NCBI GenBank assembly: GCA_947476325.1
Contig: CANJPZ010000012.1
Span: 1-64,000, forward strand
DNA: 64,000 nucleotides
Direction of reading: 5' to 3'
Source of the DNA: Caulobacteraceae bacterium
Lineage (GTDB): Bacteria; Pseudomonadota; Alphaproteobacteria; Caulobacterales; Caulobacteraceae
The notes under the pieces were generated by a model. That model was given only the letters and a program-made list of their open reading frames with translations. It was not told the DNA's origin and did no database searches. Made by a program: the position numbers and the translations under genes. Shown here piece after piece: positions 41,326-47,532 of this stretch; the stretch's first letter is position 1; every line of letters begins with the position of its first letter.

Positions 41326-41901
41326 ATGTTCAAAGGCAAGACCCTGGCGTCCCTGTTCGCAGCCCTGGCGCTGGTCGGCGGCTGCGGCGGCGAGCGGGCG
41401 GGACGGGACGTCTCCACGCCGTCGGGCTTTGCCGTGCCGCGCTATCTGATGCTGCGATTTGGCGAGATCAACGCCCGCGCCGGGCCCAGCGAAGACCATG
41501 CCAGGCTGTGGACCTATCACGCCAAGGGGATGCCGGTTCAGGTCATCGCCGAGACGAAAGAGTGGCGGCGCATCTGTGACCCCGAAGGCGGCATCAGCTG
41601 GGTCGCCTCTCGCATGCTCGAAGGCGGCGACGGCGTCATCCGCATCAAACCGGGCACCTTGCCACTGCGCCGCAGCGCCAGCCCGGCATCCGGCGTGGTC
41701 GCCAGCCTTGCGCCCCGGGGCCTTGCGCACCTCGATCGCTGCGAGAATGGCTGGTGCCGCGTAAAGGTCGGCCGCGCGGTTGGCTGGGCCCCGATGACGG
41801 AACTGTGGGGCGCGGATCCCGCCGTTCAGTGCGCCGGTCTGCCGGCGCCCGCGGCTGGGCTCGATCAGGGCGCACGGCGAATGGGTGGTGCGGGGCCATA
41901 G
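41326..41901 (+). CDS. SH3-domain lipoprotein (COG3807-like)
   Basis: A 191-residue predicted lipoprotein with lipobox LVGGC at about 17-21. Two bacterial SH3-like repeats follow: LMLRFGEINARAGPS to GGISWVASRMLEG, and TLPLRRSASPASGVV to VKVGRAVGWAPMTELWG. Proteins of this type are periplasmic and thought to bind peptidoglycan or partner proteins. The C-terminal 25 residues overlap the end of the minus-strand repeat-protein gene (41865-42260) by 37 bases. Confidence 0.85.
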   Translation: MFKGKTLASLFAALALVGGCGGERAGRDVSTPSGFAVPRYLMLRFGEINARAGPSEDHARLWTYHAKGMPVQVIAETKEWRRICDPEGGISWVASRMLEGGDGVIRIKPGTLPLRRSASPASGVVASLAPRGLAHLDRCENGWCRVKVGRAVGWAPMTELWGADPAVQCAGLPAPAAGLDQGARRMGGAGP

Positions 41902-42260
41902 GTTCCGGTGACTGACAACTGTCCGGCTTCCACAGTTTTTGTACCGGTCCCGGCGGTTCCCAGCCCAACCACGCCCAGCTGACCTACATCAACGGATTTA
42001 GACCCTGTTCCGGCGGCGCCCAGCCCAACGACACTGAGTTGACCTGCCTCAATGGTCTTCACACCGTTTGTCGCGCCCAGCCCAACAACACTCAACTCTC
42101 CGGCGACGACCGTTCGCGCTCCCGAGGGGACGACGGGTCGCAAAGCACCCTGGGGCGCCTGAATACGAGGCGGCTGGGGCGCGGCCCGGGGTTGAAACTG
42201 GGCCAGGGAAGCTCCCGCCTGCAAAAAGATAGCGGCGATCAGCAGAGCTTGCCACCTCAC
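41865..42260 (-). CDS. Secreted tandem-repeat protein (AGELSVVGLG repeats)
   Basis: A 131-residue exported protein starting at GTG 42260 in the stop of the preceding secreted-protein gene (GTGA overlap). Signal peptide MRWQALLIAAIFLQAGASLA. After a Pro/Arg-rich linker come four repeats of 19-20 residues: TVVAGELSVVGLGATNGVK, TIEAGQLSVVGLGAAGTGSK, SVDVGQLGVVGLGTAGTGTK and a partial TVEAGQLSVTG. Alternating small and hydrophobic residues suggest stacked beta turns, a short beta-solenoid or fibre. I recognise no family. The 3-prime end overlaps the convergent SH3 lipoprotein gene. Confidence 0.7.
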   Translation of the reverse strand: MRWQALLIAAIFLQAGASLAQFQPRAAPQPPRIQAPQGALRPVVPSGARTVVAGELSVVGLGATNGVKTIEAGQLSVVGLGAAGTGSKSVDVGQLGVVGLGTAGTGTKTVEAGQLSVTGTYGPAPPIRRAP

Positions 42261-42679
42261 GGCACCGTCCCGTTCAGTTCAAGAGTCCCAGCTGACGCCC
42301 GCCGCGACTGTGGTGACGAGGCGTAGGACTGGTCCTTGGGCAGATAGAAGCCGGAAGTCCCGCCGCCCGGATAGCTGCTCCCAAGACCGCAGGACCAGTA
42401 TTTCGCCTCCGGAACCCAGTTGGCGATCGTCACGGTCACCGTGCCGTCGGCAGTTCCGGCCGCTGTGCGCGGCACGGTGTTGGAGAAGGTCGGAAAAGGT
42501 CCATAACGCTGCTGCCGGGCGGCATCGAAATAGACGCTGCAGGCCACATGCACGCCGGACAGTTCCGGCGACAGATTGGTTGCGTGGACCTTGACGTTCA
42601 GGTTCAGGGTCTCGGCCATAGCCGGTACGGCAGCGGTCACGACGGCGGCGGCCAGGATAGTTGTGCAGAACAGGCGCAT
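42257..42679 (-). CDS. Secreted protein of unknown function
   Basis: A 140-residue exported protein; ATG 42679 is favoured over 42685 because GGAAGG lies seven bases upstream. Signal peptide MRLFCTTILAAAVVTAAVPAMA. The mature part has beta-strand-like stretches (LNLNVKVHATNLSPEL, VTVTIANWVP) and one Cys in HVACSVYF plus one in YWSCGLGSS, probably paired. The ending TLELNGTVP is coupled by GTGA to the repeat-protein gene, so the two products are likely made together. No known family seen. Confidence 0.7.
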   Translation of the reverse strand: MRLFCTTILAAAVVTAAVPAMAETLNLNVKVHATNLSPELSGVHVACSVYFDAARQQRYGPFPTFSNTVPRTAAGTADGTVTVTIANWVPEAKYWSCGLGSSYPGGGTSGFYLPKDQSYASSPQSRRASAGTLELNGTVP

Positions 42680-42874
42680 GTGCATTCCTTCCGTGCTCAA
42701 GCTGGGGACAAATGAACGCCGACCCAACGCCTTGGTCCAGCCAAAAATCGCAAACTTGAGTAATGGAGTCCGGCTTGAACTCAGGCCAGTCACGCGATCC
42801 TTGTTGAGCCTTGCGCCTGCATCGTGCTAACCCGCCATGCCCAAGGGGCAGCGTAACAGAGCTATCGGGACCGG

Positions 42875-43387
42875 ATGACCTTCACGCCGAAGAACGCCTA
42901 CAACACCGACGAGCTGCTGGCCTGCGGACGCGGCGAGATGTTCGGGCCGGGCAACGCCCAGCTGCCCATGCCGCCGATGCTGATGTTCGATCGCATCAAC
43001 CTGATCAACGCCGATGGCGGTCAGTACGGCAAAGGCGTCATCGAGGCCGAGTTCGATATCGACCCGACCCTGTGGTTCTTTCAGTGCCATTTCATCGGCG
43101 ATCCGGTGATGCCCGGCTGCCTGGGGCTCGACGCCCTCTGGCAATTGGTCGGCTTTTATCTGGGCTGGATCGGGGCTCAGGGTCGCGGCAGGGCGCTGGG
43201 CGTCGGCGAGGTGAAATTCTCCGGCCAGGTGACCCCGGACGTTAAACGAGTGACCTACAAGATCGAACTGAAACGCGTGATCAACCGCCGCCTCGTCATG
43301 GGCGTCGGCGACGGCGTCGTCCTTGCGGACGGCGTCCAGATCTACGAGGCCAACGACCTGAGAGTCGGCCTGTTTCAGGCGCCATAA
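42875..43387 (+). CDS. fabA: 3-hydroxydecanoyl-ACP dehydratase/isomerase FabA
   Basis: A 170-residue hot-dog-fold enzyme that dehydrates 3-hydroxydecanoyl-ACP and isomerises the trans-2 to the cis-3 double bond, the branch point to unsaturated fatty acids. The catalytic His is in [34 protein letters not shown] and [16 protein letters not shown] are also typical. Followed after 17 bases by fabB. Confidence 0.97.
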
Positions 43388-45844: not shown

Positions 45845-46969
45845 TTGGCCGCCGCGCTCTATCCCGGCCTGTCGCCCCTCATCCGGTCCCAGATTATTGA
45901 GGACGTCAACGGCCTGTCCATGCACATCCTCGAGGCCGGGTTCGAGCGCCCGCACCGTCCGGTCATCCTGTTGATCCACGGATTTCCCGAGCTGGCCTAT
46001 TCCTGGCGCGAGATCATGCCGGCCCTGGCGCAGGCCGGCTATCGCGTCATCGCGCCGGACATGCGCGGCTATGGCTTCACCACTGGATGGGACGCCGACT
46101 ACAACGGCGACATCTCGGCGTTCGGCTACATCAATCTGGTTCAGGACCTTGTCTCGCTCGTCGAAACGCTGGGACTGAAAGAGGTCGCCTGCATCGTGGG
46201 CCACGACTTCAGCTCACCGGTGGCCGCCCACTGTGCCCTGATCCGGCCCGACCTCTTTCGCGCTGTCGTGTTGATGAGCGCCCCCTATGAAGGCCCTCCC
46301 GAGGCGGCGCCGGCCCCCACGCCTTCGTTCGACGACCTGCAGACAGCGTTGGCCGCCCTGATCCCGCCGCGCAAACACTATCAGGGCTACTATTCAGACC
46401 CTGAAGCGGACGGCGACATGACCGGCGCGCCCCAGGGGCTGCACGCCTTCCTGCGTGGCTACTATCACGTCAAGAGCGCCGACTGGGCCGGGAACCGGCC
46501 TCATCCGCTGGCCGGTCGCACCGCCCAGGCCCTGGCCGTCGTCCTGCCTGACTACTATTTGATGCCGCTGGACGCGACCATGGCCCAGATCGCCGCCATC
46601 CACGCGCCAACGCCGGCCGAGATCTCGGTCTGCGCCTGGCTCCCGGACGCAGACCTGGCGGTCTATGCCGACAGCTTCTCCCGCACCGGATTCCAGGGCG
46701 GCCTGAACTGGTACCGCTGCGGAACCAGCGGCCGCAATGCCGCCGACGTCCGCAGTTTCGCCGGCGCCGCCTTCGACCGCCCCTGCCTGTTCATCTCCGG
46801 AGCCAGCGACTGGGGGACGTACCAGTCACCGGGCGTGTTTGAGCGCATGGCGTCCGTTTGCGGCGATTTTCGCGGGGCCATGCTGATCGAGGGCGCCGGA
46901 CACTGGGTTCAGCAGGAACAACCCGGGGCCGTGATCGACCGGCTCCAGGCCTTCCTCGCAACGCTCTAG
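45845..46969 (+). CDS. Epoxide-hydrolase-like alpha/beta hydrolase
   Basis: A 374-residue protein from TTG 45845, three bases after the DUF418 stop. HGFPELAYSWRE is the oxyanion-hole motif, the nucleophile Asp sits in IVGHDFSSPVAA (where most relatives have GHDWG), and the His in GAGHWVQQEQP. Lid tyrosines in YYSDPEADG and DYYLMPLDATM fit epoxide hydrolases. Hydrolysis of an epoxide to a diol is likely; the change after the nucleophile may alter the pocket. It ends in a CTAG shared with the convergent gene. Confidence 0.85.
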   Translation: MAAALYPGLSPLIRSQIIEDVNGLSMHILEAGFERPHRPVILLIHGFPELAYSWREIMPALAQAGYRVIAPDMRGYGFTTGWDADYNGDISAFGYINLVQDLVSLVETLGLKEVACIVGHDFSSPVAAHCALIRPDLFRAVVLMSAPYEGPPEAAPAPTPSFDDLQTALAALIPPRKHYQGYYSDPEADGDMTGAPQGLHAFLRGYYHVKSADWAGNRPHPLAGRTAQALAVVLPDYYLMPLDATMAQIAAIHAPTPAEISVCAWLPDADLAVYADSFSRTGFQGGLNWYRCGTSGRNAADVRSFAGAAFDRPCLFISGASDWGTYQSPGVFERMASVCGDFRGAMLIEGAGHWVQQEQPGAVIDRLQAFLATL

Positions 46970-47532
46970 CGCAGAAACTGCCCGGCCGTGGCTTCCAGCT
47001 CACGGTGTTCGGCCTCGCAGATGTCTTCGTAGACGGTCTCCATCATCACGTCCGAACCCACCGGCCGCCAGTCCTCGGTTACCGGCTTTGTCGCCGACGC
47101 GCCGGCCGTGTTGCGGTTGGTGAACTCGGTAACCTGGACCTGACGCAGGATCTTGCGGTTACAGCTGATATCGTAGTCGGTCGTCTCCGAAATCGTCGGC
47201 GCGCCGCCCGCCTTCGACGGTGCGGGCCCGTAGCGCTCCAGCCGCAGCACGGCCCGGGGCGTCACCCGGGACTGGCGCTCGTAGCTTTGCAGATAGCGCT
47301 TCACGAACACGGCGCCCTCGGACGTAAAGCCCAGCAATAGCCAGGCAGGGTCGCTCGGCGGACCCAGATCGATGTTCTGATCCCGAATCCAGCGGTTGCC
47401 GGCCGCGTCGTTGTGAATGTCGAACGGCTCGGGTGTCGCGGCGGGCTGGGCCAGACTCGCGCCCGCCAGCGAAAGGGCGATGGCCGCCGCGATCGAGACG
47501 GTGGAAATGCGCTGGAGCATGGCCAGAATCAT
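46966..47532 (-). CDS. Exported hypothetical protein, surface-adhesin-like
   Basis: A 188-residue exported protein with signal peptide ending ASLAQ. The mature domain starts around FDIHNDAAGNRWIRDQ and contains TTDYDISCNRKILRQVQVTEF and a second Cys in YEDICEAEH, the layout of small surface-adhesin-E or CNP1-like periplasmic proteins with one disulfide. The start may be 47532 or 47520. Function unknown. Convergent with the epoxide hydrolase gene. Confidence 0.68.
   Translation of the reverse strand: MILAMLQRISTVSIAAAIALSLAGASLAQPAATPEPFDIHNDAAGNRWIRDQNIDLGPPSDPAWLLLGFTSEGAVFVKRYLQSYERQSRVTPRAVLRLERYGPAPSKAGGAPTISETTDYDISCNRKILRQVQVTEFTNRNTAGASATKPVTEDWRPVGSDVMMETVYEDICEAEHRELEATAGQFLR

Follow-up and report, generated by a model that had tools for sequence, protein, structure and literature searches.

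What two small, overlapping genes that match no family at cut-off encode, and whether their products act on one another, is the question raised by one locus in the window, by which is meant the whole stretch of 64,000 nucleotides of Caulobacteraceae bacterium DNA analyzed here (contig CANJPZ010000012.1, positions 1 to 64,000). The upstream gene, P0001 (42257-42679, minus strand), encodes 140 aa from an ATG start with GGAAGG 5' of it, and the downstream gene, P0002 (41865-42260, minus strand), encodes 131 aa from a GTG start. Both reading frames, and the GTGA overlap (42257-42260, minus strand) that joins the TGA stop of P0001 to the GTG start of P0002, are present as an earlier sequence-only reading of this DNA had given them. 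The overlap suggests coupled translation, from which joint export of the two products may follow. Judged by eye, both proteins have hydrophobic N-termini and are probably exported: in P0001 a signal-peptide-like N-terminus precedes an all-beta protein, and in P0002 it is followed by a Pro-rich stretch and four core repeats. The GC3 values are 0.61 for P0002 and 0.76 for P0001; seven other genes of the window used for comparison have 0.76-0.89. No promoter or terminator was detected on scanning 41700-42950, no unusual fold was seen upstream of P0001, and the window contains no tRNA.

The pair fills a gap between two genes that lie outside the module, an SH3-domain gene (PF06347; 41326-41901, plus strand) and fabA (PF07977; 42875-43387, plus strand). 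P0002 converges with the SH3-domain gene, and the two share 37 bases at their 3' ends (41865-41901), tail to tail. Compared with the nearest relative (G001), the stretch from about 41857 to 42798, which extends from the 3' end of the SH3-domain gene to a conserved CCTTGTTGAGCC upstream of fabA, is absent from the relative. Each flanking gene was looked for in 60 genomes and is present in 59; in 48 of the 59, the own genome included, the two share a contig and a strand and are no more than 3 kb apart, and in the remaining 11 they are not so arranged, some being on different contigs. Among the genomes examined, the pair at this site is specific to this lineage, since the distance between the SH3-domain and fabA matches is 22-667 bp (median 118) without the pair in the 47 other genomes and 976 bp, filled by the pair, in the window. 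The same-genus genomes G001 and G002 show distances of 99 and 58 bp, and the 667-bp case is G099, where a 187-aa ORF that we take to be a Fur/Irr-type regulator lies between the two genes. A gain of the pair at this site is the simpler reading. A mobile element was considered for the insert and rejected, as neither a target duplication nor matching end repeats were seen. Elsewhere in the window (46966-47532, minus strand), another exported-looking protein comes close to the cut-off for Surface-adhesin protein E (PF16747, 22.7 vs 23.7 bits).

The four core repeats of P0002 occupy residues 50-121 (41898-42113, minus strand), counting each core with one flanking residue per side. The cores start at residues 51, 70, 90 and 110 and read, in order, VVAGELSVVG, IEAGQLSVVG, VDVGQLGVVG and VEAGQLSVTG. 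The spacing of 19, 20 and 20 residues bears out the four 19-20-residue repeats noticed in the sequence-only reading. When the four 12-codon units are compared in all six pairs, codon positions 1, 2 and 3 differ 24, 15 and 49 times; 30 of the codon differences are synonymous and 26 non-synonymous, which supports translation in this frame, under selection. A 10-residue core common to the repeat proteins of the family described below can be written as [VIA]x[TAV]xx[LM]x[VILMA]x[GSAT]. P0002 has one further match to the pattern, in its signal-like segment, and P0006 has two, in its N-terminal region; these three were excluded from the core counts.

Relatives were searched for with sandwich sequences or profiles as the only queries, in genome samples that overlap. 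P0001 as a single sequence retrieved no other family member from 148 relatives, and two weak P0002 matches in the own genome (E 0.10 and 0.13) were read by eye and rejected. In a class sample of 385 genomes, two sandwich genes, P0003 (G376) and P0009 (G210), were detected, and P0003 as a query revealed a second copy in G376, P0005; the same query found nothing in 115 other relatives of G376. A three-row profile applied to 372 class genomes retrieved a second copy in the own genome on contig C4, P0007 (E 9.0e-8), and the G210 gene (E 1.1e-5). Later profiles added a G099 sandwich among 146 relatives (E 1.1e-4) and a G549 sandwich among 73 relatives of G099 (E 9.0e-7), and 106 relatives of G210 held no further sandwich gene. 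Overall, seven sandwich genes occur in five genomes: two each in the own genome and G376 and one each in G210, G099 and G549. Cys 47 and Cys 97 of P0001 are found in every one of the six aligned members and, by eye, in G549, so that the early description of P0001 as a Cys-pair protein outside known families agrees with the pair being kept in seven of seven members and with no Pfam or NCBIfam cut-off being reached. In the members from own C4, G210, G099 and G549, the Cys pair goes together with a match to a profile from which that member had been left out. Many weak hits were inspected by eye and discarded. The translations of 14 non-self places among relatives (E 7e-4 to 0.01; 8 loci read in six frames, 6 on the matched strand) contained no family member; the class scans gave 31 new loci and one place without a locus, and all 31 were read, of which only L079 and L083 (G210) are members; the weak profile matches L115-L119, L126-L131, L137 and L138 were rejected by eye.

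Because only the sandwich was used as a query, the repeat genes found next to it are an independent observation. A separate same-strand repeat gene adjoins the sandwich gene at five of the seven loci. In the window the sandwich P0001 precedes the four-core P0002, and in G210 the sandwich P0009 precedes P0010 with nine cores. The reverse order occurs at own C4, where P0008 with three cores precedes P0007 with an ATGA overlap, and at both G376 loci, where P0004 (seven loose cores, none strict) precedes P0003 and P0006 (four cores in its tail) precedes P0005. Both pairs of the own genome thus share a four-base overlap, in opposite gene order. At the sixth locus (G549, L136:1462-3075, plus strand), a 537-aa protein without a Pfam match at cut-off comprises a P0001-type sandwich, a core TINTARLQAAGN and a long C-terminal part. 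At the seventh, the G099 neighbor (L125:1754-2911, minus strand) lies one base from the sandwich gene and has no recognized cores; this neighbor, which lacks a Pfam match, has Cys residues toward the N-terminus and, on inspection by eye, a further stretch resembling a sandwich. The proposal that the two genes co-occur elsewhere therefore stands for five of the seven loci, the exceptions being G099, without cores, and G549, where the core is fused, and the sandwich-repeat pairing is well supported. Judging by the ORF starts around six loci, no shared neighbors beyond the pair were seen.

The core remains recognizable across repeat proteins that are otherwise too diverged for alignment. Two controls, partly circular because the core pattern was derived from the family itself, gave the following results: among 2000 residue shuffles per protein, none reached the strict counts of P0002 (four cores; shuffle mean 0.09), P0006, P0008 or P0010, the loose pattern was never reached for P0002, P0004, P0006 and P0010 and once for P0008, and, of 1114 ORFs with an ATG start from redundant loci, 9 had at least three strict cores, all nine being copies of P0006, P0008 or P0010. 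P0002 lies outside this ORF set through its GTG start, and P0004 has zero strict cores. In addition, log-odds profiles were trained on the cores of one protein, scored as the sum of the best three places and ranked against 939 control ORFs of 100-600 aa, many of which are not real genes. With the P0010-core profile, P0002 and P0008 rank 1, P0006 and the G549 protein 2, P0004 31 (two of its three best places falling outside the repeats) and the G099 neighbor 302. The P0002-core profile places P0010 at 1, P0004 at 2, the G099 neighbor at 68, P0006 at 117, the G549 protein at 155 and P0008 at 234; a cruder scoring again has P0010 and P0004 as leaders, with P0006 at 218 and P0008 at 189. A joint P0002 and P0010 profile ranks P0008 1, P0004 4, P0006 and the G549 protein 11 and the G099 neighbor 303.

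The best explanation of the pair, to which we give a little under an even chance, is a two-gene alphaproteobacterial module in which a string of strand motifs offers 10-residue cores that are each captured by one beta-sandwich. The sandwich gene would supply an exported-looking beta-sandwich with a conserved Cys pair, and the repeat gene an exported-looking string with three to nine copies of the 10-residue strand motif, separated by variable linkers. Each core would act as a beta-strand that one sandwich molecule captures by strand addition or donor-strand pairing. The repeat protein would then be multivalent, holding roughly one displayed or stacked sandwich for each of its repeats, and the size of the heteropolymer would be set by the repeat number. 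What we infer here is that the two proteins bind each other, in what ratio they do so, and that they reside in the periplasm or at the cell surface. In single-chain models, P0001 forms seven strands (pLDDT 69.9 for the best of five models, 55-60 for the others) and P0002, modeled at low confidence (pLDDT 60.4), has a single strand of 10 residues in each repeat. A fold search showed that the P0001 model resembles common sandwich folds with no clear relative, and no sequence relatives of sandwich profile A3, P0010 or P0002 were found among solved structures. The steady pairing, the G549 fusion and the single strand modeled for each P0002 repeat together make strand capture the likeliest mechanism, and the varying gene order, together with sandwich and core in one G549 protein, suits a direct contact between the two.

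The main rival is a short beta-solenoid, in which the core would form a corner and the linker a variable loop, with the sandwich capping or decorating the repeat protein, much as in the fibre with a cap or chaperone suggested by the sequence-only reading; we consider it unlikely. Core parity switches between positions 3 and 6, so that the core, instead of being one alternating strand, may turn a corner between two short strands, which suits a solenoid. Bactofilin, spruce budworm antifreeze protein and GlmU, all solenoids, are among the top Foldseek neighbors of the P0002 model, and P0010 matches Bactofilin (PF04519; E 0.12), but none of this is significant: the best Foldseek E is 1.4, P0010 scores 13.1 bits against a gathering score of 27.9, and P0002 has no match at E 5. 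Spacing also argues against a solenoid. Adjacent cores lie 15 residues apart in P0004 and P0006, 29 in P0008, 19, 20 and 20 in P0002, and 17, 17, 17, 21, 17, 19, 19 and 29 in P0010. Core length is constant across the family, and the counts of 3-9 copies and linkers of 5-19 residues argue against fixed solenoid rungs. P0008 would moreover have three rungs only, joined by Pro-rich linkers of 19 residues. The beta-solenoid rungs of fixed length proposed from the sequence are accordingly not supported, as the spacings of P0002, P0004, P0006, P0008 and P0010 taken together vary from 15 to 29 residues between proteins and from 17 to 29 within P0010; solenoids with variable loops are possible.

Comparably improbable is a reading without any meeting through the core, in which the repeats form a flexible stalk or a spacer in the envelope, and the sandwich acts independently, as a co-expressed exported binding protein. 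The Gly-, Pro-, Ala- or Arg-rich linkers, the N-terminus of P0010, which by eye resembles a membrane anchor, and the additional N-terminal region of P0004 and P0006, presumably CARDB-like and without a Pfam match, all suit this reading, as do the weak structural neighbors of P0001, which include CBM20 domains (Z ~6). Two findings count against it: the core is recognizable between proteins too diverged to align, and it is fused to a sandwich in G549. A conflict module of some kind (toxin-immunity, inhibitor or other), spreading as a small cassette, is far less probable still. Patchy occurrence, the lineage-specific presence at the SH3-fabA site, the lack of a common neighbor between loci by ORF starts and the lower GC3 of P0002 would fit a cassette. 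P0001 is also the single match of P0001-P0010 to PHROGs, a non-significant one to phrog_23903, annotated as a toxin (E 0.069, 14.1 bits). Against this stand the exported look of both products, the absence of a Pfam or NCBIfam family at cut-off and the outcome of PADLOC, a collection of anti-phage defence systems, in which P0001-P0010 have no significant match and P0010 the single match (E 0.094).

The sandwich-repeat family appears to be undescribed. No Pfam-A cut-off was reached by P0001-P0010, the G099 sandwich and its neighbor or the G549 protein, and NCBIfam returned 0 families for P0001-P0010 at E <= 1. Matches were absent from plasmids for P0001, P0002, P0003, P0005, P0006, P0007, P0009 and P0010, from phages for P0001 and P0010, from viral contigs for P0001, P0002 and P0010, and from a genome contig collection for P0001 and P0002, in a pattern-based search that reaches close relatives only. 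The family may be missing from the searched libraries because of fast divergence and patchy occurrence. Among the literature matches listed, no title describes such a pair, which is thin evidence of absence. The working principle proposed for the module with strand capture would be akin to donor-strand and scaffold systems. Chaperone-usher pili use donor-strand exchange, in which a strand-accepting beta-sandwich is joined by a short donor strand; the proposed principle shares these two elements, whereas here a single separate protein would carry the donor strands one after another. The pair showed no sequence relation to these pili, and none of the four window neighbors scanned with Pfam is a chaperone or usher gene; beyond the window, the scan took in four ORFs of loci L139 and L122, and other neighbors were read as ORF starts. 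In cohesin-dockerin scaffoldins, a multivalent string fixes the number of partners assembled. Here, a string would likewise set the partner number, but it would carry short strand motifs and the partner would be the folded domain, and no sequence relation was found. The repeats of periscope proteins are folded domains, in contrast to the 10-residue cores and the separate partner gene found here. Periscope proteins are described as surface proteins with changeable repeat number (PMC9704523). Bactofilin and other beta-solenoids share the short hydrophobic repeats and the sub-threshold P0010 match and differ in the missed cut-off, the variable spacing and the exported look of the proteins studied here. 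With these findings, two orphan ORFs become a recognizable alphaproteobacterial family with a testable partner relation. If the cores bind sandwiches one to one, two small genes would suffice to build assemblies of defined size, and the module might serve as a tool for multivalent display.

A more specific version of strand capture, which is possible if doubtful, is that the pair forms a new exported heteropolymer, a donor-strand string with one separate sandwich per motif and a repeat number that sets the copy number, in which the motif may imitate the last strand of the sandwich and displacement of that strand would drive assembly. The best core-like stretch in P0001 is its own C-terminal strand (42266-42301, minus strand; residues 127-138, RASAGTLELNGT; model strand 130-138), with a score of 15.0 versus 5.5 for the next best. 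Shuffle p values for this mimicry are 0.06 with the partner's cores and 0.15 with other cores in P0001, and 0.022 with other cores in P0007, for which the value is 0.40 with the partner's cores and another stretch scores best. The two values are 0.33 and 0.10 for P0003, 0.44 and 0.74 for P0005, and 0.74 and 0.59 for P0009. Strand mimicry as a general rule was therefore rejected, given that the signal is confined to P0001 and P0007, both of the own genome, and in P0007 does not extend to its own partner. For P0001, and partly for P0007, a core that imitates the last strand of the sandwich is hinted at by these comparisons. The P0007-P0008 pair has as a neighbor a lipoprotein-like ORF (L121:911-1213, minus strand, G000:C4) that contains collagen-like Gly-x-Thr triplets GNTGNTGDTGATGSTG and adjoins a DUF3617 protein (PF12276); on the other side is a sulfotransferase-domain gene (PF17784).
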